Positions 1-14,427 of a stretch of 64,000 nucleotides of DNA are shown in pieces. This stretch comes from Granulicella sp. L46 (GTDB taxonomy: Bacteria > Acidobacteriota > Terriglobia > Terriglobales > Acidobacteriaceae). A model generated the notes under the pieces. That model made no database searches, was not told the origin of the DNA, and saw only the letters and a list, made by a program, of their open reading frames with translations. The stretch spans positions 509,406 through 573,405 of the forward strand of contig NZ_LMUT01000009.1 in assembly GCF_009765785.1 (NCBI RefSeq), in the 5' to 3' direction. The translations under genes were made by a program, and so were the position numbers. Within the stretch, counting starts at the first letter, position 1. Every line of letters starts with the position of its first letter.

Positions 1-3000
1 GACCAGACCAGCGTCACGGTGGACGGCCTTGACGTGAACGATATCGCGGCCGGTACGACCTTCGGGATCATTGCAACCGCTCCCGTCGATTCTGTTGAAC
101 AGTTTACCGGCACGGTTGGCGGTCTCACCTCAGGCCTTGGCACCGGCAGCGGCGGTCAGTTCCAGCTGGTCACCAAGCACGGTACCAATCAATTCCATGG
201 CAACGTCAATGAATACCACCGCGATACGTCGACGGCCTCCAATACCTACTTCAATAACAATGTTGGTCTGGGACGTACTCCCCTTATCCGCAACCAGTTC
301 GGCGGCAACATCGGTGGCCCCATCATCCGCAACAAGCTGTTCTTCTTCTTCGATTTCGCCGACTCGCGCATCATTCAGTCCAACGCGGCTGAACCCATCG
401 TGCCCATCCCGGCGCTGTACTCCGCTAATCCGACCTTGAACTACATCAACAATAACGAAGGCTGCGGCGACACCAGCCGTCTCAACAACGCCCCTAATTG
501 CATTAGCAGCATCGATGCTGCACAGGCCGTCGCTTTAGATCCGGCCCACATCGGCTTCAACCCGAATGTCCTGGCGTTCCTCGCCAAGCGGTACCCCGCA
601 CCCAATGACCCGACCCAGGGCGATGGTGTCAATACCGAAGGCTTGCGCTTCACCTATCCGCAACCTGACTTCGAGACCACGTACGTCGGTCGCGTCGACT
701 ACAACCTGACCCAGAAGAACAAGATTTACGGCCGCTTCACCATCAATCGCACCAATGAGGTCTACCCCACCAGCGAGGGAGCTCCCCAGTTCCCTGGCGA
801 TCCGGCCAGCTTGACCGAAGTCGACCGCAGCTACGGTTATGTTGTCAGCGACATCTGGAGCATCGGCAACAACAAGGTCAACCAGTTCTACTACGGCGAC
901 AACATCTCCAAGCTGACTTTCCTCGCTGGGGATTTCACCACCTCACCGAATGTGTATACCTTCACTGGCCTGGCGAACCCGTACGGAACCTCCAACACGC
1001 AGTCGCGCCGCATACCGATTCCGGTTGTGCGTGATGATTTCAACTGGCAGGTTGGCAATCACAGCCTTACCATGGGCGGCCTGTTCAAGTTCATTAAGAC
1101 CAATAGCAACAACATCACGAACTATAACTTCGTTTCTGTAGGCGCAATTGGCTCGAAGTTAGGCGGAGGTCTTTCTCCACTCTTGCGCCCCGGGGACATC
1201 AACCAGAACTCCCAAGTCGCATTGAATGACTACGACCAGATCTTTACGACCACACTCGGTGCCATCGGCGAGATCGCCACGAACTTCGATTATGGCAAGT
1301 CAGGCAATCAACAGCCAAACGGGGCGGGCAACCCTTACGCGTATCGTTACTACCAGACGGAGCTTTACGTCGGCGACAGCTGGAAGGTGGGTAAGCAGCT
1401 CACTCTCAGCTATGGCCTCCGTTGGCAGACCAACTCTGTTCCCTATGAAGTTCACGGATTGCAATCCGGCTACCAGCTGCAAGGTCTCTCCTATCCCCAA
1501 TCGACTTTCAACCGGTATTTCGGCATTCGCCAGCAGTTGAATTCTACCGGCAGCCTCAACCAGACACTGCCTTACTTCCAGGCCGTCCTGGGTGGCAAGG
1601 CCAACAATGCTCCGCCTTCCTACGCGCAGACCTATACAGACTTTGCGCCTCGCTTCGCCTTCGCGTACAACCCATCCTTCTCGCCCAAGACCGTCTTCAA
1701 CGGCAGTGCAGCCCTCGTGTATGATCGCACCGTTATCAACGCGATCAATAACCTTCAGAGTCAGCTGTCGTTCCTCTTCGAGAACTCGGCCACCAACCAG
1801 CTCGGTGATCTGAGCAACCCGGACCAACGGCTCGGTGCGAACCTGTCGTACGATCCGAGCCTTGCCCCCACTGGGTCCGCCCCTCCCTCGGGCTTCATTC
1901 CCTATGTCGACCCATCCTTCGGACCGTATGGCCTGTTGGATGGACAGGAAGGCTTTGATATCGATCCGGGCCTGAAGGATCCCTACTCGATCTCCCTGAA
2001 TGCGGGCGTCCAGCAGGAGCTTCCCTGGCACACGATTCTGAAGATCAACTACGTTGGTCGCCTCGGTCGCCGGCTGCTTGCCGATGCCGATGCATCCCAG
2101 ATTCTGAACTTCCCGGATACTACCTCTGGGCAAACCCTTTCTCAGGCGTTCGCCGGCCTCACTGGTCAGTTACGAGCCGGTGGCCCCCTCACGCCGCAGC
2201 CTTGGATTGAAAATGTGGTTGGCTACTCTGCAGCCAATAATCCCAATAGCGCCGGTGGCCCCTGCAACTCTCCGTATTGGCCTAGCGTGCTCTACGGGCC
2301 TGGTACCACCGCCCCTCCGTTTGCTAACTGCACCGAGCTGGTGGCCGCGACCTTCGGTCAGTACGGGCCGCGCGGTGACCTCGGCGACGGTATTCCCTTC
2401 GGCCTGGCCACGTTCGGCTTGTTGCCTAACAACGTAGCTATGCCTTCACAGTTCGGTGCGAACGGCTTCCTCACCAACAAGGGCTTCTCGAGCTACAACG
2501 CCCTTCTGGTCACGCTGAGCAAGAATCTGACGCAAGGTCTGCAGTTTGACTTCAACTACACGTTCTCGCATTCCATCGATAACAACTCGCAGACTGCAAA
2601 CAATAACGCTCTGTTCAACTCCACGGGCATCATCTGCGACGTGACCCAACCTCGCGCCTGCCGCGGCAACTCGGACTTCGACGTGCGCCAGATCATCACG
2701 GCGGACATCCAGTACGATCTTCCCTTCGGCAGGAACAGGAAGTACTTCGCCGGTGCCGGGACCTTTACGAATGAACTGATCGGCGGATGGAGCATATCCG
2801 GTATCCCGTCGTGGCGCACAGGGCTTCCGATTAACGTTCTCTCCGATGCCTTCATCTCCTCGTTCGCGGCGGAAGATCCGGCAATCTTTACCGGCACTCA
2901 CGGTGACCTCGGATTCGAGAGGTCCAAGCCCAACAACGTTCAGGGAACGGTCTACAATTTCCCTGGCGGTTCAACGGGTGCGTCGAAGGCCCTCAGCTTC

Positions 3001-3303
3001 TGGCGCGGCCCGCTGGGTCTGGAGTACGGTTCACGCAACCTGATCCACGGACCAAGCGCAGGCAACCTCGATCTGGGCCTCGCCAAGATCTTCGGCATCA
3101 TCCCGTCGAAGGGCGTGAACCTGACCTTCCGTGCGGATTTCTTCAATATCTTCAACCACCCGAACTTCGCCAACCCCAGCGGCAGCGTGCCGGACATCGT
3201 CAACAACGTCTCGCCATTTGGCCAGATCACCTCAACCATCAGCCCGTCCGGACAAGTCGGCGACATTCGTGTCGGCCAGTTCTCTCTCCGTCTGGAGTTC
3301 TAA
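1..3303 (+). CDS. TonB-dependent receptor, Oar/SusC-like, 5' end missing
   Basis: The reading frame is open to the left edge, so this is the 3' part of a large outer-membrane receptor gene. The first visible residues read as the plug-domain motif VDGLDVND, so the signal peptide and any carboxypeptidase-like N-terminal domain lie outside the window. What follows is typical of acidobacterial Oar-like receptors: GGQFQLVTKHGTNQFHGN, then IRNQFGGNIGGPI, then KLFFFFDF, many aromatic beta strands, a late TFRADFFNIFNHPNF segment and a C-terminal FSLRLEF ending in phenylalanine, as outer-membrane barrels do. Family role: TonB-energised uptake of an unknown ligand, possibly an oligosaccharide or siderophore. 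The substrate cannot be read from sequence. The gene is followed by two hairpins, the second a convincing terminator. Confidence 0.9.
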   Translation, partial: DQTSVTVDGLDVNDIAAGTTFGIIATAPVDSVEQFTGTVGGLTSGLGTGSGGQFQLVTKHGTNQFHGNVNEYHRDTSTASNTYFNNNVGLGRTPLIRNQFGGNIGGPIIRNKLFFFFDFADSRIIQSNAAEPIVPIPALYSANPTLNYINNNEGCGDTSRLNNAPNCISSIDAAQAVALDPAHIGFNPNVLAFLAKRYPAPNDPTQGDGVNTEGLRFTYPQPDFETTYVGRVDYNLTQKNKIYGRFTINRTNEVYPTSEGAPQFPGDPASLTEVDRSYGYVVSDIWSIGNNKVNQFYYGDNISKLTFLAGDFTTSPNVYTFTGLANPYGTSNTQSRRIPIPVVRDDFNWQVGNHSLTMGGLFKFIKTNSNNITNYNFVSVGAIGSKLGGGLSPLLRPGDINQNSQVALNDYDQIFTTTLGAIGEIATNFDYGKSGNQQPNGAGNPYAYRYYQTELYVGDSWKVGKQLTLSYGLRWQTNSVPYEVHGLQSGYQLQGLSYPQSTFNRYFGIRQQLNSTGSLNQTLPYFQAVLGGKANNAPPSYAQTYTDFAPRFAFAYNPSFSPKTVFNGSAALVYDRTVINAINNLQSQLSFLFENSATNQLGDLSNPDQRLGANLSYDPSLAPTGSAPPSGFIPYVDPSFGPYGLLDGQEGFDIDPGLKDPYSISLNAGVQQELPWHTILKINYVGRLGRRLLADADASQILNFPDTTSGQTLSQAFAGLTGQLRAGGPLTPQPWIENVVGYSAANNPNSAGGPCNSPYWPSVLYGPGTTAPPFANCTELVAATFGQYGPRGDLGDGIPFGLATFGLLPNNVAMPSQFGANGFLTNKGFSSYNALLVTLSKNLTQGLQFDFNYTFSHSIDNNSQTANNNALFNSTGIICDVTQPRACRGNSDFDVRQIITADIQYDLPFGRNRKYFAGAGTFTNELIGGWSISGIPSWRTGLPINVLSDAFISSFAAEDPAIFTGTHGDLGFERSKPNNVQGTVYNFPGGSTGASKALSFWRGPLGLEYGSRNLIHGPSAGNLDLGLAKIFGIIPSKGVNLTFRADFFNIFNHPNFANPSGSVPDIVNNVSPFGQITSTISPSGQVGDIRVGQFSLRLEF

Positions 3304-3465: not shown

Positions 3466-4035
3466 CTAGAATTCGATCCCGCGCTGCGCGAGAATACCCC
3501 TTTGATATGCGTGCTTTACCTCACGCATCTCCGTAACCGTGTCCGCCAGCTCCACCAGCAGCGGATGCGCGTTTCTGCCCGTCAAAATTACGTGCAACAT
3601 CTCCGGCTTCCGCCGCAAAACGTCCGCAACTCGTTCAGGATCAAGCATCTTGTACCCGATCACATAGTTGATCTCATCCAGCACCACCAAGTCCCAATCC
3701 CCCGAAAGGATCGCCGTTTCAGCCTCCAGCCAACCCTCCTCCACCATCCGAAGATCCTCCGGATCGGCCTCCGCCCCTCCCACCTTAACGAACCCGCGAC
3801 CCAGCTTACGCATCACGTAAGTAAAACCATCTAAAGCATTTATCGCCTCTGCAGACTCCATCTCCCCATAGTGCCAGGACCCCTTAAGGAACTGCAAAAC
3901 CAGCACCCGCATCCCATTCCCAGCCGCCCGAAACGCCGTTCCCAGCGCCGCAGTCGTTTTTCCCTTCCCAGCGCCAGTATTAATAAGAATAAGCCCGCGC
4001 CGCGAATCCCCGGCCGAATCCTGCATCGATGTCAT
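3466..4035 (-). CDS. cobO: Cob(I)yrinic acid a,c-diamide adenosyltransferase (CobO/BtuR type)
   Basis: A 189-residue protein that transfers the adenosyl group of ATP to cobalt(I) corrinoids in the cytoplasm, forming adenosylcobalamin precursors. The P-loop TGAGKGKTT lies at residues 20-28, followed by the family strings LGTAFRAAGNGMRVLVLQFLKG and WDLVVLDEINYV, and near the end HVILTGRNAHPLLVELAD and VKHAYQRGILAQRGIEF. Length and C-terminus match CobO/BtuR rather than the unrelated PduO type. The start at 4035 is ATG; an ATG three codons in is an alternative. It lies 45 bp downstream of rlmH on the same strand and could be co-transcribed with it. No other cobalamin gene is present in the window, so a salvage role is possible. 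Confidence 0.93.
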   Translation of the reverse strand: MTSMQDSAGDSRRGLILINTGAGKGKTTAALGTAFRAAGNGMRVLVLQFLKGSWHYGEMESAEAINALDGFTYVMRKLGRGFVKVGGAEADPEDLRMVEEGWLEAETAILSGDWDLVVLDEINYVIGYKMLDPERVADVLRRKPEMLHVILTGRNAHPLLVELADTVTEMREVKHAYQRGILAQRGIEF

Positions 4036-4080: not shown

Positions 4081-4533
4081 CTAGTGGCCACTATGGTATG
4101 GATGCCCCGCTCGGATTGTAAGCGCGCGATAAAGCTGCTCGGCGGCGACCACGGCAGCCAACTCATGGGGCAATGTGATTCGGCCGAAAGCAATCGTTTT
4201 GTCCGCTCGGGAAAGGGCCGCTGCGGACCAGCCATCAGCCGACCCAACCGCGAAGATCAACTGTTGTATCCCATTGTCCTGTAGAGAACCGAGAAAACTG
4301 GCGATTTCGAGAGAATTGAGCTGCTGTCCCAGGCTGTCGGTTAACAAAAGCACAGGCCGGGTACGCGCAGAGAGTTCATCGGAATAACCCAGCAGTTCCT
4401 TTTCGGAACCGAAATTGCGGTGGGCACAAGGGGTGAATCTGGAAGATCTCCCAAGGTAGAGCTCAAACAACTCAGCAGAAGGTCCCGAAAGACCAGAGCG
4501 GCGTGATGAGATAGTGGAAAGCAGAATTTTCAT
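4081..4533 (-). CDS. rlmH: 23S rRNA (pseudouridine1915-N3)-methyltransferase RlmH
   Basis: A 150-residue SPOUT-class methyltransferase that modifies pseudouridine 1915 in helix 69 of 23S rRNA using S-adenosylmethionine. The diagnostic C-terminal half is present: LIFAVGSADGWS (knot and cofactor loop), then ITLPHELAAVVAAEQLYRAL, then the ending GHPYHSGH, matching the HPYH signature of the family. The frame is open upstream to 4599, but the ATG at 4533 starts MKILLSTISS, which matches the usual N-terminus and length (about 155 residues), so I chose it. In many bacteria rlmH directly follows rsfS; here a receptor gene on the other strand separates them. The next gene downstream is cobO. Confidence 0.9.
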   Translation of the reverse strand: MKILLSTISSRRSGLSGPSAELFELYLGRSSRFTPCAHRNFGSEKELLGYSDELSARTRPVLLLTDSLGQQLNSLEIASFLGSLQDNGIQQLIFAVGSADGWSAAALSRADKTIAFGRITLPHELAAVVAAEQLYRALTIRAGHPYHSGH

Positions 4534-4665
4534 AGCGTGTTCATCAGATTTTCCTAAAGAGTTCTTCCATATTTCATATTTATATACTCCGATCAGCATC
4601 TTTAGAGTGATTCTTCGGCACCCCGCAAACCACTAACTGGCACATTCCAATAACCACTTCACTTT

Positions 4666-4682
4666 TGGCACGGTACTTGCTA
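4666..4682 (+). promoter_or_regulatory. Sigma-54 (-24/-12) promoter of the receptor gene
   Basis: TGGCACGGTACTTGCTA matches the sigma-54 consensus TGGCAC-N5-TTGCW with no mismatch. The GG (4667-4668) and GC (4679-4680) are separated by exactly 10 bases, the required spacing. The expected start of transcription is near 4692, about 65 bases before the likely start codon. Transcription would need RpoN and an enhancer-binding protein; neither gene is in the window. Confidence 0.8.
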
Positions 4683-4758
4683 TCGGCTATAGCAAGCACA
4701 TGAACTATTGTGTGCGTGTGTGTTCTCAACCGCTCAAGGTGAGGCACTGGAGAGATGC

Positions 4759-7700
4759 GTGATCTTTAAGAAGATGTTTGTGTTCCTTACCATGTTGTTG
4801 ATGCCCTTTTCGCTCGCACTGGGACAGGCGGTTTCGACAAACGGCGGAGCCATCGAGGGAACGATTACCGATCCGACTGGAGCATCCATTCCGGGAGCAA
4901 CCGTTGTCATCGCCGAACCGGCAACTGGGTATACACATACAATCAAGACCGATAGCGCCGGCTATTACAGCGTCGGCCCACTAGTGCCTGGTAGCTACAC
5001 TATTACCATCAGCGCCCCAGCCTTCGAGGGCCTGTCCGACACCAAAGTTGTCCATACCGGTACGGTGACGAGTGGCAACGAAAAGCTCACGCTTGGTGCA
5101 GCGACCCAACAGATCACAGTCACTGCCGGCGCACTGCAGGTCAACACCGATCAGATTGGTGTTGCCGGCATCGTGACGCAGGAGCAGATTGATACGCTGC
5201 CGGTCAATGGCCGCAACATTCTCGACGTTGCACAGATTCAGCCTGGCGTCATTCTGCAGTCGGGTATCACTTTCGATCCGACCAAGGCCGGCTATTCGGC
5301 GCTGTCGGTGAGTGGTGTCGGCGGCCGTACAACTCGAATTCTCCTCGATGGCCAGGACGTCACGGATGAGACGGTCGGAACCACCATCTTCAACATTCCC
5401 AGCGGCGCGGTTGGCGAGGTCCAACTGAATCGCTCCACGCAGGACATTGCTGGTTCGGTAACCTCCACGGGCCAGCTGTTGATGTCGACGCGTTCTGGTA
5501 CGAACGGCTTCCATGGCAATGCGTTTTACAACTTCCAGGACAACAACGCAGGTTTCGCGGACGTGAATGGCCTCGCGGCGCCGTTTCAGCGTAACCAATA
5601 TGGTGGATATGTAGGCGGCTACATCATCAAGGACAAGTTGTTCTTCTTCGGTGGCGGCGAGCGCATCCAGCAGACGGAACTAGATGTAGCCAGCGGCGCG
5701 AACCCAGTGTTTCAGAATATCTTGGACGAGTACCCTTACGTTCCGGCACCGTTCCATGACACCTTCAGCATGGGCCGCCTGGATTACAACGCGCCGCATA
5801 ACATCCACATGTTCGTGCGTGGCGCCTACAGCGTGAACGCGGACGATGCTACTTTCGGATACGGTCCCTACCAGGTCTATCAGAACCGCGACAACGTGCC
5901 GGCCATCGTGGGCGGCGTGGATGTGGCTACGGGCCACTTCAACAACTCCTTCCGTTTCGGTTACGAAAAGTTCCACAACCTGTTGGTTGACGGTACTGCA
6001 GCACTCGGAAGCTCTATCTACAACCCGTCGACGGGCCCAGACAACCAGATCACCCTTGCGGGCGATTTGAACGCCGGTCCCAACTTCCTTGCACCGCAGG
6101 GAACGTTCCAGTCGGATAAGCAGTTCCGCTACGACGGCAGCTACACGATCAGCAATCACAACATCAAGTATGGCTTCGAGATGAACCGGATTCTGGGCGG
6201 TGGGTTTGCGGACTTCTATGGCCCGTCACTGTACACGGAACTCGTAGTGGCCGGCAATCTAGACCCCCATTGCGACGATGATCCCGCCCAAGGCCCCTGC
6301 CCGAACAATCCGACCGAAGGCTACATCTCGCCCCAATACGTGATCGGTAACGGTAATGGTTATTTCTCTGAGCGCCCAGGATTCAACCTCCCGGGCGGCG
6401 GCCAGTTCAGCTGGCGCTTTGCGGCCTATGTTGGGGACACCTGGAAGGCGACCCAGTACCTTACGGTGACCGCGGGTGTTCGTTGGAGCGTAGATACAGA
6501 TCGCGCCAACCAGGATCTGCCAACGCCTCTGTGCTCTTCCGTGGATCCTTCAATGCAATTCGCTGGTTGCACAGGCGATACCCCACTCTTTGACCAATAC
6601 CAGGCAGGTTTGGGAGTCCGCACCCATCAGCCTTACGGCGACTTCGGTCCCCAGTTAGGCTTCGTTTTTAGCCCCGGTACCCACAAAACCTCACTTCGTG
6701 GCGGCATCGGCATCTACTACGAGAGCAACGTCTTCAATAACTCGGGCAATGCTCGTACGCCCTCCATCCAGGCGAATGGTCCCTATTTTGCCCTCGGCGT
6801 GGCGAACGCGGGCGCATCCAGCATCACGGTTCCTGGTGTCCCTGTTATCACCCAAGCTCCCGATGGTACGCCGGTTTCAACCATCCTTAGCGAGTCCATC
6901 GCAAATGCCGCACCGGAGCTGAATGATATCAAGGCTGCCTATCAGGCCGTCGTCAAGAATGCCCTGACGCCAAACAGCAGCTACATTGGAACAGGCGGCG
7001 GTCTCTTTGCGAACAGCATCTACGGCGGCCCGTATCTTGCACCGTATTCCATCCAGTTCAATGGTGGCGTTCAGCATGAAATCAAGCCAGGCCTTCTCCT
7101 GAGCGCGGATTATGTACACAACGCGACGATCAAGGTTCCGATCTCTGTTGATGTGAACCACGACGGAGCCGCGCGCACACTGAATACTGCAGCGGCACAG
7201 AATGCCATTGCTAATACGCTTGCTCCTAACGCCGCTGCGGGTTATGCGGGCTACCCGATGTGCCCGCAGGGTTACTCGGCTGCTTCCATCAATTGCGCCA
7301 TCGCCAACGGCGCCACGATCGGGAGCTTCGCGTCACAAGGTCTTGATAGCGGCACTAACTTTTTGGGCGGGACCGCGGCGTCGTATGGCGGTTTGACACC
7401 GGCTACTGGCGCTGCCTTCCCCGGTACGAACCCGAATGTTGGTGAAGGACTCTTCATCCTTCCCCAGGGCCGTTCCGGCTACGATGCCTTGCAGGTCGTT
7501 CTGCAAGAGCAGAAGGCGCACCCTATGCCTGGCATCGTGGATAGTAACCTGCAGATCTCGTACACCTTATCGCGCATCGTTACCTCAACTTCCACTCTGA
7601 ATAACGCGAACTCTACCGATCAGTTCTTCGGTGGAGCTCGTCCGTGGGACAACGACAACCCGAACCAGTACATGGGGCGCAGCGCGTTGGATCACACTAA

Positions 7701-8397
7701 CGAGCTCAGCTTCGGCGGCAGCATCGGTATCAAGTATGGTCTGCAGGTTGGGTTGATTGGGCACTTCTTCTCGGCGCCCCCATCGTCGCTCACGCTGGAC
7801 AACACGTCTGGAAACACAGGCCAAATCTTTATCACCGACGTAAACGGTGATGGAGTTGGCGGCGATCTGGTCCCGGCCACGAACCCCGGCGCTTTCATGC
7901 ATGCCGTCAAGGGTAAGAGCCTGAATTCCCTGATCAATCAATACAATTCCGTGAATGCAGGTGCGCCCACGCCAGCAGGCCAGGCGCTCATCGCCGCGGG
8001 AATTATGACGCAGGCACAGTTGACCGCCCTTGGTGGTGTACAACAGGCGATCGCTCCACAGCCGCAGAACAATCCGATCAGCAACCCGGCGTTCCGCAGC
8101 TTTGACTTCAACGCTACCTATCCGATCAAATTGAAGTTCCTGGGTGGGCTCAGCATCAACCCTGGAGTTGCCATGTACAACGTTTTCAATATGAGCAACT
8201 TTGGCAATCAGTTGGGAACGCTGTTGAACGCAGCAGACGCAGCTCCGTATCCTCCGGATCCGGGTGCTCCGACAGGCTATGTGAACACCACCAACACAGA
8301 GGGGGCGTTGAACAGGCTCCGCATCAACCGGAACTCGGGTACGTTCGATCAGGGCGGTCCGCGCAGCACGGAGTTCCAGCTGATGATCAAGTTCTAA
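4759..8397 (+). CDS. TonB-dependent receptor with carboxypeptidase-like N-terminal domain
   Basis: A protein of about 1212 residues for TonB-linked outer-membrane transport of an unidentified substrate. It begins with a signal peptide (KKMFVFLTMLLMPFSLALGQA), then a carboxypeptidase regulatory-like beta-sandwich (AIEGTITDPTGASIPGATV through GYYSVGPLVPGSYTI), then a plug domain (LPVNGRNILDVAQIQPGV, ILLDGQDVTDE), then a barrel ending TEFQLMIKF. I chose the GTG at 4759, which has GGAGAG four bases upstream and gives a positively charged signal peptide; the ATG at 4774 is the alternative, and the frame is open back to 4708. A consensus sigma-54 promoter lies just upstream and a terminator follows. 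The gene sits between rlmH and rsfS on the opposite strand, breaking a usually contiguous cluster. Confidence 0.92.
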   Translation: MIFKKMFVFLTMLLMPFSLALGQAVSTNGGAIEGTITDPTGASIPGATVVIAEPATGYTHTIKTDSAGYYSVGPLVPGSYTITISAPAFEGLSDTKVVHTGTVTSGNEKLTLGAATQQITVTAGALQVNTDQIGVAGIVTQEQIDTLPVNGRNILDVAQIQPGVILQSGITFDPTKAGYSALSVSGVGGRTTRILLDGQDVTDETVGTTIFNIPSGAVGEVQLNRSTQDIAGSVTSTGQLLMSTRSGTNGFHGNAFYNFQDNNAGFADVNGLAAPFQRNQYGGYVGGYIIKDKLFFFGGGERIQQTELDVASGANPVFQNILDEYPYVPAPFHDTFSMGRLDYNAPHNIHMFVRGAYSVNADDATFGYGPYQVYQNRDNVPAIVGGVDVATGHFNNSFRFGYEKFHNLLVDGTAALGSSIYNPSTGPDNQITLAGDLNAGPNFLAPQGTFQSDKQFRYDGSYTISNHNIKYGFEMNRILGGGFADFYGPSLYTELVVAGNLDPHCDDDPAQGPCPNNPTEGYISPQYVIGNGNGYFSERPGFNLPGGGQFSWRFAAYVGDTWKATQYLTVTAGVRWSVDTDRANQDLPTPLCSSVDPSMQFAGCTGDTPLFDQYQAGLGVRTHQPYGDFGPQLGFVFSPGTHKTSLRGGIGIYYESNVFNNSGNARTPSIQANGPYFALGVANAGASSITVPGVPVITQAPDGTPVSTILSESIANAAPELNDIKAAYQAVVKNALTPNSSYIGTGGGLFANSIYGGPYLAPYSIQFNGGVQHEIKPGLLLSADYVHNATIKVPISVDVNHDGAARTLNTAAAQNAIANTLAPNAAAGYAGYPMCPQGYSAASINCAIANGATIGSFASQGLDSGTNFLGGTAASYGGLTPATGAAFPGTNPNVGEGLFILPQGRSGYDALQVVLQEQKAHPMPGIVDSNLQISYTLSRIVTSTSTLNNANSTDQFFGGARPWDNDNPNQYMGRSALDHTNELSFGGSIGIKYGLQVGLIGHFFSAPPSSLTLDNTSGNTGQIFITDVNGDGVGGDLVPATNPGAFMHAVKGKSLNSLINQYNSVNAGAPTPAGQALIAAGIMTQAQLTALGGVQQAIAPQPQNNPISNPAFRSFDFNATYPIKLKFLGGLSINPGVAMYNVFNMSNFGNQLGTLLNAADAAPYPPDPGAPTGYVNTTNTEGALNRLRINRNSGTFDQGGPRSTEFQLMIKF

Positions 8398-8416
8398 ACG
8401 CAGTTCTTAACAACGA

Positions 8417-8442
8417 AGGGCGGAGAGAAGACTCTCCGCCCT
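8417..8442 (+). terminator. Hairpin terminator after the second receptor gene
   Basis: A perfect 11-bp stem (8417-8427 with 8432-8442) with loop AAGA lies 19 bases after the receptor stop. The T-rich stretch behind it (CTATTTAATT) is weak. It separates the receptor from the convergent rsfS. Confidence 0.7.
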
Positions 8443-8492
8443 CCGCTATTTAATTCGAGATCAGCAAGGTGTAGAAGACCTGCCAAGCTCAA

Positions 8493-9089
8493 CTAGCGTT
8501 TCGTCGATTTAGCTGTCTTCTTTGCCGGCTTCGCGAGCGCCTTCTTCTTGGGTGCCACTTTCGCCGGAGCCCTCTTTGCAGCGGCAGTCTTCTTTGCAGA
8601 AACCTTCTTCGGCGCAGGCGAGACTGCCTTCTTCTTCGGAAGAGTTTTCTTGTCCGTCGTGGATGCCTTCGCCGACTGCCTGGTGCGGCCTGCAGCGATG
8701 GCTGTCTTGATCGCAACATTGAGATCATCGATGCTGAGCACGGTCGCTGACTTGCGCAAACGCTCCAGCCCATAAAATGCGCGCTTTTCCGCCGAGAAGA
8801 CATGGACGATGAAATCGACATAATCCATTAGGATCCACTCGCCTTGGCGGCGGCCTTCGACCGAATTGGGATAGGTGCCAAAGTCGCGCTTAAGACGAAT
8901 CTCAATTTCATCGGTGATCGCTACATTCTGACGATCACTGAGACCTGTGCAGATGAGAAAGTAGTCTGTCAGGCCGCTCTCGGATGGGTCGAGCGCGAGA
9001 ATGCGAATGTCCTCTGCCTTCTTGTCCTCGCAAGCGGCTGCCGCGACAGCTAGAAGCTGTTGAACCTGTGTTTTCTTGGTGCTTGCCAT
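8493..9089 (-). CDS. rsfS: Ribosome silencing factor RsfS with a histone-H1-like tail
   Basis: Residues 1 to about 120 form the Iojap/RsfS domain, which binds ribosomal protein uL14 and blocks subunit joining when nutrients are scarce. Family strings seen are KAEDIRILALDPSESGLTDYFLIC, then GLSDRQNVAI and then GEWILMDYVDFIVHVF. From about residue 126 to 198 the protein is almost only Lys, Ala, Pro, Ser and Thr, with repeated KKA, APKK and PAKK units like the tail of bacterial histone-H1-like proteins. Most RsfS proteins end near 110-130 residues, so the tail is an addition. The ATG at 9089 has a perfect AGGAGG three bases upstream. The gene follows nadD by 60 bp on the same strand, the classical order. 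Confidence 0.92.
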   Translation of the reverse strand: MASTKKTQVQQLLAVAAAACEDKKAEDIRILALDPSESGLTDYFLICTGLSDRQNVAITDEIEIRLKRDFGTYPNSVEGRRQGEWILMDYVDFIVHVFSAEKRAFYGLERLRKSATVLSIDDLNVAIKTAIAAGRTRQSAKASTTDKKTLPKKKAVSPAPKKVSAKKTAAAKRAPAKVAPKKKALAKPAKKTAKSTKR

Positions 9090-9149
9090 GGGCCTCCTAA
9101 TGCAACCTCAATGGTAGCGCAGGAAGACCCGAAGCGAAGGACGATCGCC

Positions 9150-9770
9150 TCAGGTTCCGTAGAGACGATGGGCACGGATGTAGTTCAGAATGGAGCCAGG
9201 CAGCAGGCCAGAGCAATCCGATCCGACCCTCAGAAGCTCGCGGATGTCGGTGGCGCTCGCAGGTTCATGCACACCCTCAAGCACGTGCACCCGGGATAGC
9301 TGCTCAGGCGTTAGTTTGAGACTCTGTAACTGCTGCAACGAGACGCCCGGGCGGTTTACAACAATCCATTCGGCAAGTTGGAGCAGGCTGTCCGGAGACC
9401 TCCAGCGACGCAGATCCAGAAATGCGTCAGCGCCGACGATAACAAAAAGGCTGTCATCCGGAGAGGTGTTGACGTGTAGCTTGATCAAAGTATCTACCGT
9501 GTAGTTCGGTGAGCCATCTGCGTGTGGGGCATCGACTGAAGACGGTTCAAAGTCCGCATGAGCGCTTGGGGGCTGCAACTCGCAGAGCAATGAAACCATG
9601 GATAGGCGATCGGCAAATGAAGCGGAGGCCCCCTTTGTTTTGAGTGGTTGCCGGCCAGTTGGCGCGAAGAGGATGCGATCAAGCGACAAAGCCTCAGCAG
9701 CGGCGTGCCCAATCCCGAAATGGCCCAAGTGGGGTGGGTCGAAGCTGCCGCCAAAGAAGCCAATTCGCAT
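9150..9770 (-). CDS. nadD: Nicotinate-nucleotide adenylyltransferase
   Basis: A 206-residue enzyme that joins nicotinate mononucleotide and ATP into deamido-NAD, a cytoplasmic step shared by de novo and salvage NAD synthesis. The N-terminus carries the nucleotidyltransferase motif GGSFDPPHLGH (residues 7-17), with RILFAPTGRQPLK following. Further in are YTVDTLIKL, FVIVGADAFLDLRRW and the C-terminal SATDIRELLR region, equivalent to the ISSTxIR motif that contacts ATP phosphates, and an ending YIRAHRLYG typical of the family. Length is normal. It is the first gene of a nadD-rsfS pair. Confidence 0.95.
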   Translation of the reverse strand: MRIGFFGGSFDPPHLGHFGIGHAAAEALSLDRILFAPTGRQPLKTKGASASFADRLSMVSLLCELQPPSAHADFEPSSVDAPHADGSPNYTVDTLIKLHVNTSPDDSLFVIVGADAFLDLRRWRSPDSLLQLAEWIVVNRPGVSLQQLQSLKLTPEQLSRVHVLEGVHEPASATDIRELLRVGSDCSGLLPGSILNYIRAHRLYGT

Positions 9771-9911
9771 GATGGCTGATTGTATCCGGCATGGCGGCTA
9801 TTCACTCGCCACGACGCACTCCGTTAAGTGAGCAGCGACCCTCGCTTCGTCCCTCTAGAGCAGGCGCATAACTGAGCGTTGAGTCTGAGTTAGGCCGTGG
9901 CACAGGGCGCT

Positions 9912-9939
9912 GGTTATTCTGCGCGAAGGCAGAATAACC
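9912..9939. other. Inverted repeat with 11-bp stem, role unclear
   Basis: GGTTATTCTGC at 9912-9922 is the exact complement of 9929-9939, with a 6-base loop. It lies between nadD and the glycine-rich protein gene. No T tract flanks it on either strand, so termination is not shown. Confidence 0.5.
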
Positions 9940-9964
9940 GGGTTGCGACAACGAGAGTGAATAG

Positions 9965-10005
9965 GCAAAAAGAGCCGGGCGGCCGGAGATATCTCCGGAC
10001 GCCCG
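9965..10005 (-). terminator. Terminator of the glycine-rich protein gene
   Basis: The palindrome at 9983-9998 (CCGGAGATATCTCCGG) is extended by CGGGCG/CGCCCG outside a one-base mismatch. Read on the minus strand it is followed by CTCTTTTTGCC. It lies 22 bases after the stop codon of the minus-strand gene. Confidence 0.75.
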
Positions 10006-10026
10006 TAAGTATTGCAGCCAAATGGG

Positions 10027-10917
10027 TTAGTGGTGGCCTCCGCCGCCACCTCCGTGGCCCCCGCCTCCGCCCCAACCGCCGCCACCACCGCCCCAGCCAC
10101 CGCCGCCGTGCCAGCCTCCTCCCCAACCGCCGCCGTAGTAGCCACGACCCCAACCACCACCGTAGTAGCCCCAGCCGAAGCCAAAGTAGTAGGGATAGCC
10201 GAAGTAGTAGGGGTACCCGTAATCGTAGTAAGGATAGCCGGCATACGGCCCGTAGTAGCCGGGACCGGGGCCTGGGGCGCCCATGCCCTGGTTATAGCCA
10301 TAGGGGATGAGGTCGGCGCGCGCTTCAAAGGGGTCAAATTCGAAAGAGCGGATGTCCGGGCCGTTGAAGATGACTGCGTGGTTCTCCTTTATTTTGATCG
10401 GTTTGACTTGGGTGTTGGTGCCGGGATAGGCCCAGGCTTCACCTTTCAAAGTACGGGCGGTGTTGGTGTTGGCGTTGAAGGTGTAGAAGCCGTCTTTGAT
10501 CAAATTTGTCTCGCCGCCGGGGAGGATGATCAGGATCTGGGCGTGCTTGATGGCGCTGTGGATGCTGATGTTGGCTACGCCGCGTTCAACTTTAAGTACT
10601 GTATTTTCATTGCTTAACGTGACTGCGCGGACGGCGCTGCCGCGGCCTACGCGGAGGAAGACGCCGGGGGCGACTACGGCGCTGGCGGAGCCGCGGCCTA
10701 CCGTGAGGAGCTGGCCGGGGGCTAGCTTGGTCGGGGCGGCGTTGTAATCATTAGGGTTAGCTGGAGGGGCTTCCTGGGAGCGCTCGATCGGGGCGGCCTG
10801 GGATTGCATGGGGGGAGTACTCATTTGGCCGCTCTGGGGGTCATTATCCTGCGCAAAAGCGGCAGATGTGAACGTTGTCAGGGTCAGAGCGAGGAGAAGG
10901 GTGGTGAACTTGGACAT
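10027..10917 (-). CDS. Secreted FecR-like protein with Gly/Tyr-rich C-terminus
   Basis: A 296-residue protein of unknown role. Residues 1-22 are a signal peptide (MSKFTTLLLALTLTTFTSAAFAQ). The middle (about 65-195) reads like a FecR/beta-helical surface domain, with LLTVGRGSASAVVAPGVFLRVG and VERGVANISI. From about residue 205 the chain is dominated by Gly, Tyr, Trp and Phe (repeats of GYPYY and GGGWG) and ends in GGHGGGGGGHH, a composition seen in surface-exposed low-complexity proteins. The family call is tentative; I recognise no catalytic motif. The gene is monocistronic, with a terminator just downstream. Confidence 0.75.
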   Translation of the reverse strand: MSKFTTLLLALTLTTFTSAAFAQDNDPQSGQMSTPPMQSQAAPIERSQEAPPANPNDYNAAPTKLAPGQLLTVGRGSASAVVAPGVFLRVGRGSAVRAVTLSNENTVLKVERGVANISIHSAIKHAQILIILPGGETNLIKDGFYTFNANTNTARTLKGEAWAYPGTNTQVKPIKIKENHAVIFNGPDIRSFEFDPFEARADLIPYGYNQGMGAPGPGPGYYGPYAGYPYYDYGYPYYFGYPYYFGFGWGYYGGGWGRGYYGGGWGGGWHGGGGWGGGGGGWGGGGGHGGGGGGHH

Positions 10918-11029
10918 ATGCTGAACCTCTGTCGTAGTAGACGAGATTTTATGCCTAAACGTTGCGGTTTTGCAGGTTCGCGACGATTAGCGGGCGAATC
11001 AACCAGTTTGCGGCGGTGAATTTGGTGTC

Positions 11030-11084
11030 GACTTAGCCCTGTTTCGGGTTACGCAGCGACGTGTTTAGCCCATTTTCGGGACGC
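11030..11084 (-). repeat. 55-bp dispersed element, copy 2
   Basis: The reverse complement of this stretch matches 3400-3454 at about 47 of 55 positions, including both CCCGAAA..GGGCTAA half-units and the TAACCCGAAAC core. It lies in the gap between a DUF3606 protein gene and the glycine-rich protein gene. Confidence 0.7.
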
Positions 11085-11135
11085 ACGTTTGCGGGAAGTC
11101 GTGGGAGGGTGGGATCCTTCGCGGACGGCGGGGGG

Positions 11136-11357
11136 TTAGTGGGGGTGGAGGGCGGCGCGGACCTTGTCGACGTGGGTGCCGTGGACGCGGATGGCCTCGT
11201 GGAGGACCTGGCTGGTGACGTGGAACTCTTTGGACCAGTAGGCGATGTCGGAGGACATCTTGGGGTTGATCTCTTTGGGGTCGTGGGGGCCTGCGGTTTG
11301 TTCTTCGTGGGGGGCGTGGGGCTCGTGGGCTTTGGGTGCGTCGTGGTGCTCGGACAT
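11136..11357 (-). CDS. Small DUF3606-domain protein
   Basis: A 73-residue protein. The last 45 residues fit the DUF3606 pattern: KEINPKMSSDIAYWSKEFHV, then a second helix ending VHGTHVDKVRAAL, which predicts a small helical fold of unknown function. The first 27 residues are rich in His, Glu, Pro and Ala. The frame stays open far upstream through an intergenic repeat, but the ATG at 11357 has GAGG seven bases before it and starts the conserved part, so the long version is rejected. A His-rich microprotein gene lies 400 bp upstream on the same strand. Confidence 0.75.
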   Translation of the reverse strand: MSEHHDAPKAHEPHAPHEEQTAGPHDPKEINPKMSSDIAYWSKEFHVTSQVLHEAIRVHGTHVDKVRAALHPH

Positions 11358-11465
11358 CGGGGTGCCTCGTGTACTGCTTAGAAGGATGTGCGTGCGGCGT
11401 GTGGGGATGTCCTGCGCGGACGGCGAGAGGCTTCCCGTGGCGGGCAGGGAGAGTTGGGGTGCGAG

Positions 11466-11575
11466 AGAGGAAAGCAATTCACTCGTTTCGACTGCGGCTT
11501 CACTCGGGCCTGCGGCAGCGTGGTATCCCACCATGCCGCAGACGCGCGTCATGGATGGGGCTCCCGGCTTCGCGT
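11466..11575. repeat. Intergenic element of about 105 bp, copy A
   Basis: This stretch aligns with 11622-11723 in the same orientation: both have GAGGAA-G-CAATTC, then CACTCGGGCC, then CGGCAG, then GGTATCCCACC, then a region with ATG..GCGTCATG and GATGGGG/AATGGGG. The two copies are diverged. The gap 11358-11763 holds these copies and no gene I can support. Confidence 0.55.
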
Positions 11576-11621
11576 GGGGCGACGAGGTATGGGGTGGTGG
11601 AGTGGAGGGTGTGAGTGATGC

Positions 11622-11723
11622 AGAGGAAGACAATTCGGTCGTTGCGCGTGCGGGTGCACTCGGGCCTTCGGCAGAGCGGTATCCCACCCATGACGCAAAG
11701 GATGCGTCATGAATGGGGACCCG
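11622..11723. repeat. Intergenic element of about 105 bp, copy B, with hairpin
   Basis: Second copy of the element at 11466-11575. It contains a perfect 9-bp inverted repeat, CATGACGCA at 11689-11697 with TGCGTCATG at 11703-11711, loop AAGGA; the corresponding part of copy A is degenerate. The open frames that run through both copies have no start signal or family resemblance. Confidence 0.55.
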
Positions 11724-11763
11724 GGTGCTGCGCGCGCGGCGATGGCGGTGCGTAGGGCGAGGG

Positions 11764-11976
11764 TTACAGGTCGGTTGCAACCTGGGCGACATCCTCGGAG
11801 GCTTCGTGGGCGTGGGTGGAGTGCTTGTGGGCACTGGCGGAGTGCTCGTGAGCCTTGGCGGAGTGCTGGGCTGCTTCTTCGTGGTTGCCGGCTTCGTGGT
11901 GCTCGGCTGCGGCGTGGTGGGCTTTGGCGGCTTCTTCGTGATGATGGGCTGCGGTCTTGTGAGCTTCGTGTGCCAT
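11764..11976 (-). CDS. His/Ala-rich 70-residue microprotein
   Basis: Begins MAHEAHKTAAHHHEEAAKAHHAA and continues with near-heptad spacing of HH, AHxHS and EAA units to the end. Such composition predicts one long amphipathic helix or coil with many metal-binding histidines. Similar short proteins starting MAHEAHKTA are, to my knowledge, widespread and uncharacterised. The ATG at 11976 has AGGAG seven bases upstream (AGGAGATACCCC), which supports translation. No signal peptide or membrane segment. Role unknown; metal binding or stress protection are guesses from composition alone. Confidence 0.7.
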   Translation of the reverse strand: MAHEAHKTAAHHHEEAAKAHHAAAEHHEAGNHEEAAQHSAKAHEHSASAHKHSTHAHEASEDVAQVATDL

Positions 11977-12122
11977 GGGGTATCTCCTGTGACCGGATTG
12001 TCCGGTGTGGGAGATGCTAGGGCTGGGTGTGTTTCATTGGCATGAGGACGAGATGAAATGATTGCACAACGCCCGTCTTACGCCGACCTCGAGGAAATGG
12101 AATAAGCTCGTGCAGATGAAGC

Positions 12123-12485
12123 TTACTTGCATTTATCTAGTAGCATCTGCGCCGCGCCGCTTTTTGAGAGCGCGTAATCTTCGACCCAAACATCAGTAGA
12201 CTCATCGGCCGTGTCATCCAGAATCGTATGCATGCCGTAGGTTGTCATATTTCCGACCATGATGTCGTCCTCGTCAGGATCGTGGCCTCCGAACCATTCG
12301 AGCACGGAATAGTCGACGTTGCTGGGTGTCTTGATTGCAACGATGTAGTAGTCGCAGCCGCTAATTCTATGGGTCACAATTCCTTTCGAGCTGGCAGCTT
12401 CCACTGGAGCGACTTGGCTGGTCGCGAAGGTCGTGGCGATTATGCAAACGGCAGCAAGAATTCTGAGGCCTGATTTCAACTCCAT
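12123..12485 (-). CDS. Small secreted hypothetical protein
   Basis: A 120-residue protein with an N-terminal signal peptide (SGLRILAAVCIIATTFATSQ..VEAA, cleavage near residue 30). The mature part is acidic (GGHDPDEDDIMVG, DDTADESTDVWVEDY) and has cysteines in GCDYYIV and at the C-terminal LLDKCK, which could form one disulfide. I do not recognise a family. The DNA here is less G+C-rich than the gyrA side and resembles the defence-like operon that starts 190 bp away on the opposite strand, so both may belong to one acquired segment. Confidence 0.6.
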   Translation of the reverse strand: MELKSGLRILAAVCIIATTFATSQVAPVEAASSKGIVTHRISGCDYYIVAIKTPSNVDYSVLEWFGGHDPDEDDIMVGNMTTYGMHTILDDTADESTDVWVEDYALSKSGAAQMLLDKCK

Positions 12486-12675
12486 AGTTTTGCCTCTGAG
12501 TGATTGCTTGAAATATAGACCAAGTGGGAATCAACGTGTTGCGGCTCGACAAATAACTTCGCACCAGGGGAAAGGTGAGATAGACTTGGCGCACCGTTCT
12601 CGTCAAATTTTGAAATGCTCACAGGCCCTTATGCGAACCGTATTGTTGAGTTTCCTTTGTCACGTTTGAGGTGCT

Positions 12676-13521
12676 ATGGAGAAGAATCAATTCAATGCCC
12701 TAACTGCCATGCAGCGGCTTCATTTCCAGCAGGCGGCGAATCTCCAATACGCGATCCTATATGTGCAGATTGCGATAGCCGTCCTTGGCGCTGCGGTCGT
12801 GTTCGTGACCGGCCAAATGATCGACTATTCAGCCAGTATTTTAGGCGCGTCGCTGGTAATCAGTTGGCTAATTCTCTTCATAAATTGCAGGAAAAAACGA
12901 GATCTCGCCGAGCGACTTCGCAGAGCCACCTTGGTTTCCGGAGGTCTCGGCATCGTCCTTAGCAGGGAAGAGTTTTGCGATTTAATGTTGGCTTCGGGCG
13001 CCACGGAATCCCAGATTCAGGGCTATCACGATCCCACCTATTACGCAGCGCAGGGTTTGCCTCCAGGCGCTGAAAAGCTCGCCGGTATGCTTTGTGAGTC
13101 ATCATTTTTTTCCGCCTACCTGCTTGCAAGAAGTGCTTGGATTTACGCTTCAGTCTGCTTTGTTACTTTCGTAGTCTGCGTTGGAACAATTCTCGTGGCT
13201 TTGACTGTGCTCGATAGGGGAGCCTTGGTTATCAGTGTCCGCTTCGTTTGCTGCTTCGCGACCCTGCTGGTATCGACCGATCTGCTGGGAGCTTCGATCG
13301 CATACGCCTCGGCTGCGGAGACAGTCAGGAACGTTATCCAGAGGTTAAGGCTAGCAAAGGCAAACGGGTATCCCCAACACGATCTGTTGATGATCCTTGG
13401 AGATTACAACTCCGCTGTTGAAGGGGCACCGCTCTTTCCGCCGGGAGTCTACGCCCATTATGCGGATTGGTTGAACGATACGTGGAAGCGATCGGATAGC
13501 TACGAACCGGCTTGCAAATGA
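12676..13521 (+). CDS. S-4TM family pore-forming effector (CBASS-like)
   Basis: A 281-residue membrane protein with four predicted transmembrane helices in two hairpins: about 25-45, 51-70, 153-176 and 183-205. This 2+2 layout matches the S-4TM (SMODS-associated 4TM) family, as do the cytoplasmic segment YYAAQGLPPGAEKLAGMLCESSFF (split here: residues 122-145) and the tail DYNSAVEGAPLFPPGVY followed by WLNDTW. In that family the protein is the predicted membrane-damaging effector of CD-NTase systems: a cyclic nucleotide made on phage infection would open or assemble it. It is followed after 27 bp by a CD-NTase gene on the same strand. GAGG lies before the ATG at 12676. Recognition is by pattern, not by search. 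Confidence 0.8.
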   Translation: MEKNQFNALTAMQRLHFQQAANLQYAILYVQIAIAVLGAAVVFVTGQMIDYSASILGASLVISWLILFINCRKKRDLAERLRRATLVSGGLGIVLSREEFCDLMLASGATESQIQGYHDPTYYAAQGLPPGAEKLAGMLCESSFFSAYLLARSAWIYASVCFVTFVVCVGTILVALTVLDRGALVISVRFVCCFATLLVSTDLLGASIAYASAAETVRNVIQRLRLAKANGYPQHDLLMILGDYNSAVEGAPLFPPGVYAHYADWLNDTWKRSDSYEPACK

Positions 13522-13548
13522 ATTGATCATATAACTTAGGAGGCAGCG

Positions 13549-14427
13549 GTGGCCCTTTCAGTTGACGCGGGATTCGGCGAACTCATTGAGACAATTCGTG
13601 CGAAGCAAGGCGAGGTTGAATCTGCTGCAGGTCATCGCGCGAGTATCGATGCGAAGCTCAGAAGCGTATTTGGATCGACGGCTTTGTTTAGGACGGGTTC
13701 GTTTGGGAACGGAACTAATGTAGCAGGATATAGCGACGTCGATTATTTCGCCGTAATTCCCGTGGAGAATTTGAAGGCCGACTCCGCTATAACTCTCGAT
13801 GAAGTCGCAACGGCTCTCCGCGATCGATTCCCGTTTACTGATATCCGGATCAATGGTCCTGCGGTGAAGGTTCCATTTGGGTTAGACGGAGCGGAGGCCA
13901 CCGAAATTGTTCCAGTTCATCACACTGGATTCACAAAGCTGGGCTTTAGGCAGTTTGATATGCCTGACGGAAAGGGCGGTTGGAAGTTCAGTGCTCCTGA
14001 ATCTCATAACGCCTATGTCTCCGCGGTCGATGACAAATTCAGCGGTAAGGCTAAGCTGTTGATTCGCCTTTTGAAAGCTTGGAAGTATTACAAGAATGTG
14101 CCGTTGAAGTCGTTCTATCTCGAAATCGTTACCGCTGCATATGCCTCGGCAGAGAAGGCAATCGTCTATCAATTGGATATTCCGAGAGTTATGCGATTGC
14201 TGTTACAGAACGGTGTAACACGTGTGCGCGATCCAAGGTTCCCAAACGACGAAATGTGGCTTGATCCGTGTGCCACCGAAACGCAGCGAAAGGAGATCGC
14301 CGAACATTTGAAGCGTGCGGTTGATTGGGCAGAGGAGGCCTGGGTATCGGAAGTCGCGAATGATATGGAGGAAGCGTTCGATCGCTGGGACCTCGTGTAT
14401 AACTGGGAGTTCCCTACTTATATCTGA
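13549..14427 (+). CDS. CD-NTase (cGAS/DncV-like nucleotidyltransferase, SMODS)
   Basis: A 292-residue cyclic-oligonucleotide synthase. The nucleotidyltransferase core shows G50-S51 in GSFGNG, the metal-binding pair D63 and D65 in YSDVDYF, and a third acidic residue, E119, in ATEIVPV. Helices expected of the family follow: LLIRLLKAWKYY and KSFYLE (187-192). The C-terminal part (VRDPRFPNDEMWLDP and on) resembles the helical domain of OAS/CD-NTases. Family role: making a second messenger that activates the partner effector, here the S-4TM protein just upstream, as in type I CBASS. The start is GTG at 13549 with AGGAGG five bases before it. No Cap2/Cap3 or HORMA/TRIP13 genes are nearby. The nucleotide product is unknown. 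Confidence 0.87.
   Translation: MALSVDAGFGELIETIRAKQGEVESAAGHRASIDAKLRSVFGSTALFRTGSFGNGTNVAGYSDVDYFAVIPVENLKADSAITLDEVATALRDRFPFTDIRINGPAVKVPFGLDGAEATEIVPVHHTGFTKLGFRQFDMPDGKGGWKFSAPESHNAYVSAVDDKFSGKAKLLIRLLKAWKYYKNVPLKSFYLEIVTAAYASAEKAIVYQLDIPRVMRLLLQNGVTRVRDPRFPNDEMWLDPCATETQRKEIAEHLKRAVDWAEEAWVSEVANDMEEAFDRWDLVYNWEFPTYI

Follow-up and report, generated by a model that had tools for sequence, protein, structure and literature searches.

A predicted sigma-54 promoter ahead of an Oar-like TonB-dependent receptor gene in Granulicella sp. L46, with a candidate kinase-activator operon

The site at 4665-4681 in the analysed stretch of the Granulicella sp. L46 genome (64,000 nucleotides, hereafter the window) very probably works as a sigma-54 (RpoN) promoter for a gene encoding an Oar-like TonB-dependent receptor, judging from the motif and its conservation. 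In the proposed mechanism, RNA polymerase carrying RpoN would form a closed complex on the -24 and -12 elements at 4665-4681. ATP hydrolysis by an AAA+ enhancer-binding protein (EBP), itself bound further upstream, would remodel this complex, and the receptor would then be made from a start near 4692. A sigma-54 closed complex cannot start transcription without ATP hydrolysis by an EBP. Within the group of Oar-like TonB-dependent transporters of this bacterial family to which the receptor belongs, a good half appear to keep such a promoter, and TBDR1, the tandem receptor just upstream, would be wired likewise. The leading candidate for the activator is a family-conserved pair of a PDZ-GAF-PAS kinase and an NtrC-like EBP, which itself seems to lie behind a sigma-54-type promoter; its candidate enhancer, the dyad TATG-RNTTTYYRTA, is shared by the upstream regions of some receptor orthologs. 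What can be read from the sequences themselves are the motif and its conservation, rpoN, the kinase-EBP operon and the shared dyad. These bacteria carry dozens of Oar-like receptors per genome, about whose regulation and substrates, to our knowledge, little has been established. Our comparison points to two receptor groups under predicted sigma-54 control, to a single conserved kinase-activator operon and to an enhancer-like element. Since sigma-54 promoters are silent without their activator, the activator's signal would point to the cargo of these receptors.

The promoter site and its surroundings

The relevant features of the window are listed below.

19..3303, + strand: TBDR1 (tandem receptor), C-terminal part, from domain matches; its start lies before the window
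3466..4035, - strand: cobO/btuR, corrinoid adenosyltransferase, from a domain match
4081..4533, - strand: rlmH, divergent neighbour, with a SPOUT_MTase domain
4665..4681, + strand: predicted sigma-54 (RpoN) promoter, -24 TTGGCACG, spacer GTAC, -12 TTGCT, from sequence match and ortholog conservation
4676..4696, no strand: inverted repeat CTTGCTAT-CGGCT-ATAGCAAG, 8 bp and perfect, over the -12 element and the predicted start, seen by eye
4692, + strand: predicted transcription start (+1), 12 bases past the C of the -12 GC, from promoter geometry
4749..4754, + strand: ribosome-binding-like GGAGAG, seen by eye
4759..8397, + strand: Oar-like TonB-dependent receptor, 1212 aa, GTG start, from domains and fold
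8493..9089, - strand: rsfS, from a domain match
9150..9770, - strand: nadD-like nucleotidyltransferase gene, with a CTP_transf_like domain

The sequence TTGGCACGGTACTTGCTA occupies positions 4665-4682 of the + strand, its TGGCAC...TTGCTA portion corresponding to 4666-4682. Ten bases lie between the GG and the GC, which is the -24/-12 spacing. The preliminary description of this DNA had claimed a consensus match with exact spacing, and an exact match was indeed found at 4665-4681 (+). Its distance of 77 bp to the receptor's start was also correct, counted from 4682 to the in-frame GTG at 4759; the ATG at 4755 does not share the receptor's reading frame (ATG CGT GAT CTT TAA). The site falls within the 225-bp gap between the receptor and rlmH (start at 4533, - strand), and a crude scan of the + strand ahead of the receptor gene revealed no sigma-70-type promoter-like site. 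The inverted repeat at 4676-4696 is possibly an operator, or else a chance occurrence. The receptor interrupts the nadD-rsfS-rlmH order (window 4081-9770) and lies on the opposite strand; it is placed inside the same gene order in genomes G012 and G011. As nadD-rsfS-rlmH is the usual gene order, the gene at 9150..9770 is presumably nadD, and we likewise take the SPOUT_MTase gene at 4081..4533 to be rlmH.

The receptor has a signal peptide (seen by eye), a CarboxypepD_reg N-terminal extension (PF13620, E 5.3e-16) and an OMP_b-brl_4 outer-membrane barrel domain. In fold comparison, most of the structure model of residues 24-1212 (1189 residues, mean pLDDT 85.8) aligned with TonB-dependent transporters, including YddB (E 9.8e-25), FusA (Z 34.4 over 670 residues, rmsd 5.0) and BtuB 1nqe (Z 33.3 over 526 residues, rmsd 2.6). 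The modelled fold thus agrees with a large outer-membrane barrel of the TonB-dependent transporter type. The receptor gave no match to the plug domain PF07715 at 0.001, and the fold alignments began at model residue 1 to 108; three of the five other receptors behind a consensus site gave a PF07715 match just under the cut-off. The search of solved-structure sequences with the receptor alignment returned seven sequences, all of them over the region of the N-terminal carboxypeptidase-like domain only. The named records holding the closest orthologs were from Bryocella, Edaphobacter and Granulicella. cobO adjoins the receptor in G027 and G012 and in none of the other 18 ortholog stretches examined. 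The cobO neighbour and the BtuB fold match hint at a corrinoid as ligand, but BtuB is only one among many matches of this type.

The genome of the window (G000; 5.48 Mb, 39 contigs) contains one copy of rpoN (PF04552, E 2.5e-56), whose product carries the RpoN box RRTVAKYRE. The gene whose absence, according to the preliminary description, would refute the promoter is therefore present. The same genome encodes 11 strong EBP matches (PF00158) out of 16 listed, and none of these 11 is located in the window. Across the family, rpoN was found in 191 of 200 genomes and the candidate kinase in 192 of 200. Because both are nearly universal, their presence does not track the receptor and carries no information, and their co-occurrence with it was discarded as evidence.

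Counting of motifs in the window's own genome was also abandoned as evidence. Searching the window for TTGGCACGNNNNTTGCT with up to two mismatches gave 2 matches versus 2.18 expected, the only exact one being the 4665-4681 site. The sigma-54 consensus is TTGGCACG-N4-TTGCW, and its exact form occurs twice across G000. With up to one mismatch, the genome-wide count was 14 versus 12 in the reversed control, and YTGGCAY-N5-TTGCW gave 9 versus 7, in neither case an excess. The exact string is thus rare in G000, but the motif by itself proves little; as the counts do not rise above controls, conservation in relatives decides. The other exact consensus site of G000 (L293 6384, - strand; G000:C5:408367-408383) lies 373 bp ahead of a gene for a PEP-CTERM-motif product (Pfam E 2.9e-4). 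One further consensus-like site (L291 5710, - strand; G000:C9:111693-111709) is situated just beyond an EBP gene and, by our reading, precedes a possible small basic protein starting MAVSKKSIIKS.

Conservation upstream of receptor orthologs and other receptor genes

The 400-bp upstream regions of receptor orthologs were scored with the -24 and -12 elements placed at gaps 0 to 11. We set the score weights from the sigma-54 consensus, ahead of any look at ortholog sites. For the -24 element, the string TTGGCACG was used at first and TTGGCAY from the 94-region count onward; this latter string and the thresholds (18.5 and 20.5) were fixed after the first ortholog sites had been seen and were reused unchanged for the TBDR1, kinase, per-genus and later sets. 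Start codons came from a signal-peptide/RBS heuristic, which was clearly off for a few receptors (e.g., L030, L038, L125). Removal of L092, whose upstream region is cut by a contig end, from the 95 ortholog loci left 94; the set was made up of 20 rows, 28 new loci, 6 second copies and 40 further rows, with weaker or partial ones left out.

At the sigma-54 gap, 55 of the 94 upstream regions scored at least 18.5, versus 3-19 at the eleven other gaps and nine on the antisense strand; among the control gaps, 7 and 8 stood above the rest with 18 and 19 regions. The stricter threshold of 20.5 was reached by 23 of the 94 regions versus 0-4 at other gaps. Taking one region per genus gave 24/43 versus 1-8 (antisense 4). 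A later set from named genomes, reduced from 80 loci to 40 by dropping 33 duplicates and 7 unusable ones, gave 25/40 versus 3-10 (antisense 7), although it covers largely the same genera as before and not independent lineages. Under a GG...GC rule, 54 of the 94 orthologs, from 27 of the 43 genera, have the site and 40 do not. Unscored bases were skewed too, C being nearly absent (1%) at one spacer position. The nearest ortholog (L087 of G012, 79% identical) is without a site by the GG...GC rule and has a weak TTGGTGCAACAACTGCG. RpoN control of the receptor, as put forward in the preliminary description, thus appears well supported by the exact-spacing, sense-strand conservation of the site in a good half of the orthologs.

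The presence of the site was clustered on the receptor tree, built by a quick method from 54 full-length rows: its distribution takes 12 changes to explain, of which well-supported branches force 9, against a shuffled mean of 18.0. The site has been gained or lost repeatedly across this tree. Second copies in G145, G082, G226 and G215, together with one of the three in G198, are without it, whereas the other copies in these genomes keep it. Upstream regions were too diverged for alignment outside close relatives. In L132, L133 and L136, close orthologs from a single genus, upstream blocks are conserved around TCTATGAAAAAG-AGATATATCAGGT, ahead of the promoter; these blocks are possibly a genus-specific enhancer.

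TBDR1 starts at G000:C2:508827, before the window, and shows only distant similarity to the receptor of the window, with 32% in the best segment. Its sigma-54-type site, TTGGCATGCCATTTGCA, lies at G000:C2:508692-508708, 135 bp before the ATG, and scored 23.0, compared with 24.0 for the window receptor's site. For TBDR1 and its relatives, 16 of 30 regions reached the threshold at the sigma-54 gap versus 1-6 at other gaps (antisense 1). The preliminary description had suggested a search for the motif before other Oar-like genes of the same genome, and 53 receptor genes were surveyed, four weaker ones and a broken fragment being left out. Strong near-start sites were present at the window's receptor and TBDR1, while the other 51 were at background: five of the 51 reached 18.5 at the sigma-54 gap versus 2-8 at others, and the best site among them scored 21.0 at -341 (L117). 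Two receptor genes of G000, at C5:331485-334277 (within L288) and C15:61571-64255, contain an in-frame stop (TAG, TGA), the former gene being located near the kinase-EBP operon described below.

Over 15 genomes, exact TTGGCAY-N5-TTGCW matches summed to 47 versus 15 in the reversed control. Seven of these sites immediately precede genes for receptors that have CarboxypepD_reg and OMP barrel domains, and many of the 47 fall inside longer reading frames. Genes with sigma-70 regions (one), FliL (one) and histidine kinase domains (one) are found behind further sites. By our reading, L248, which has sigma-70 regions, is sigma-28-like, and L263 and L266, neither with a Pfam match, are FliK-like and a kinase, respectively.

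A candidate kinase-activator operon and its dyad element

In the relative G005, one exact site stands ahead of a large kinase-like gene, which is followed by an NtrC-like gene. The same operon is present in G000 (G000:C5, about 338520-342945; in L288 kinase 10955-13942, EBP 9523-10959, both on the - strand), where TTGGCCGCTGATTTGCA stands just before the kinase frame, beginning 53 bases ahead of the conserved SGAQTR segment; the operon of G166 has TTGGCAAGCGACTTGCT as its sigma-54-type site. The G166 kinase comprises PDZ, GAF, PAS, HisKA and HATPase domains, and the G000 EBP a receiver, an AAA+ and a Fis-type HTH domain. The usual EBP loop that contacts sigma-54 is GAFTGA; the loop reads GAFTSA in all three proteins examined (L002, L289, L290). 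Eighteen of 30 kinase promoters scored at least 18.5 at the sigma-54 gap versus 0-5 at others (antisense 4). EBP genes close to the receptor were sought by tblastn with nine EBP reading frames from L002-L008 and L011. Among the 42 fetched stretches and the window, hits came only from L172 and L176, where the distance between the kinase gene and the receptor ortholog is about 3.6 and 4.7 kb, respectively. With only these two matching, a general linkage between EBP and receptor genes was rejected.

The kinase operon is preceded by a sigma-54 site and by a dyad resembling TATGATTTTYYRTAG; this dyad was seen by eye upstream of 21 of 30 kinase promoters. These 21 served for training and nine were left out; in three of the 21 the site scored 18.0, where the threshold elsewhere was 18.5. 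An EM search from our seeds recovered nTATGATTTTnnGTAG, and the best-scoring of 40 random-start runs arrived at that motif as well, either as such or shifted. Relative to the -24 element, most dyad copies are found around -66, -87 and -152, at distances of roughly whole helical turns, and weaker copies occur at -110 and -143; given the relatedness of the loci, such a spacing is no more than suggestive.

Receptor promoters were scanned with a matrix trained on the kinase promoters alone, with expectations taken from shuffles. Dyads scoring at least 12 were found before 14 of 54 receptors with the sigma-54 site (0.8 expected) and 0 of 40 without it (0.4 expected); in 33 of the 54 the score was below 10. 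At a threshold of 10, TBDR1 and its relatives (29 of 30 loci scanned) gave 5/15 with the site versus 0.2 expected and 1/14 without it versus 0.0 expected. In the later set (39 of 40 loci scanned), 5 of 23 receptors with the site reached 12 (0.25 expected) and 2 of 16 without it reached 14 (0 expected). The strict form TATGRNTTTYYRTAK matched 12 times in 15 genomes, versus 6 in the reversed control, and was present in 11 of the 15. These genomes were chosen because they had trained or shown the motif, so that the rarity of the dyad is informative but its match rate is not unbiased. Eight of the matches lie before the kinase, two before receptor orthologs (G011, G213) and two elsewhere; each of the former ten is followed 65-153 bp on by a sigma-54-like site (score 18.0-22.0). 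The strict form had no match in G000 and three more of the 15 genomes, and the kinase dyad of G000 is the variant ATATGAATTCGTGCAT. Before the window's receptor, the scan for this one candidate dyad gave a best score of 3.1, which is the shuffle level. With no recognisable dyad in the window's promoter, we infer the activator of the window's gene from relatives only, and its identity is weakest for that gene.

That the kinase-EBP pair controls a regulon including the window's gene is, from these comparisons, a possibility that we put forward tentatively. The broader picture, which we hold with similar reserve, would be a family-wide sigma-54 regulon of outer-membrane transport: a near-universal, self-activating PDZ-GAF-PAS kinase/GAFTSA activator would sense envelope or nutrient state and, via the TATG-RNTTTYYRTA enhancer, switch on two distantly similar groups of Oar-like receptors, including the window's receptor and TBDR1. 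An EBP, for which a candidate has now been identified, may sense the relevant nutrient, as the preliminary description had supposed.

Alternative readings and known systems

The principal competing explanation differs from the one preferred here in the activator only. The sigma-54 promoter could be driven by another EBP, with the dyad marking some other regulator or the window's receptor having switched activator, and we give this reading not quite an even chance. The genome offers eleven strong EBP domains, none of them in the window, whose promoter has no dyad copy, and 33 of the 54 site-bearing ortholog promoters score below 10 for the dyad. Against this, the strict dyad is rare (12 in the 15 chosen genomes), 10 of the 12 copies are at kinase-EBP or receptor promoters, and among the 94 orthologs an excess of the dyad is seen only where the receptor also has a sigma-54 site before it.

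The match might instead be due to chance, with the receptor transcribed from another promoter and the motif idle; in G000, sites this good are no more frequent than in the reversed control, and the nearest ortholog has only a weak one. We nevertheless consider chance very improbable, given that orthologs conserve the site with exact spacing and in sense orientation (27 of the 43 genera have it), as does the later set, and that the crude scan of the + strand ahead of the gene turned up nothing resembling a sigma-70-type promoter. Sigma-54 might also bind the site and mainly block or tune another promoter, the repeat at 4676-4696 then being a repressor operator. The perfect 8-bp inverted repeat does extend across both the -12 element and the start predicted at 4692, but by eye it is absent from the two nearest aligned orthologs, and this reading seems very improbable to us. 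A working sigma-54 promoter at 4665-4681 is the preferred explanation.

No report of sigma-54 control of TonB-dependent receptors, including Oar-like ones, in Acidobacteria was found in the open-licence literature searched. The title of one paper presents sigma-54 as a controller of the bacterial exterior, with cell-surface targets (PMC3162934); in its main text, TonB, Acidobacteri-, Solibacter, Koribacter and 'outer membrane receptor' have 0 occurrences. The accessible part of PMC10433810 does not tie RpoN to a TonB-dependent receptor. A sigma-54-controlled TonB-dependent receptor may have been reported in another phylum. For Bradyrhizobium sp. DOA9, the accessible part of a published study gives a predicted RpoN site, TGGCCTGGCTCTTGC, at -47 before a Ni/Co TonB-dependent receptor (PMC13207237), so that the idea of RpoN acting on such receptors is not without precedent. 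That case differs from ours in concerning one gene, another phylum and another receptor type, and in coming from a genome-wide prediction table (PMC13207237). The title of another paper links NtrYX of Paracoccus denitrificans, an NtrC-family two-component system, with iron homeostasis, and the accessible text contains 'TonB-dependent' and 'sigma54' (PMC9409073). According to the accessible part of its description, Oar of Myxococcus xanthus likewise has a CarboxypepD_reg extension ahead of a TonB-dependent transporter barrel, but is needed for secretion of the protease PopC; sigma54, sigma-54 or RpoN has 0 occurrences in the main text of that paper (PMC6434023).

AtoS and AtoC were the best NCBIfam matches of the G000 kinase and EBP, at least among the matches listed, and PEP_resp_reg also matched the EBP. 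These scores lie below the curated cut-offs (AtoS 276.2 of 646, AtoC 449.8 of 714, PEP_resp_reg 384.7 of 502.6), and the candidate activator reached no curated cut-off among the best 25 of 118 NCBIfam rows. The site shares with known sigma-54 promoters served by NtrC-family activators the -24 GG and -12 GC at exact spacing, and the genome holds both rpoN and activators. The enhancer-like dyad, 65-153 bp upstream in the kinase operons and before some receptors, also resembles NtrC-type systems. Unlike in known systems of this type, Oar-like TonB-dependent receptors form the predicted target group, and the candidate activator reads GAFTSA.
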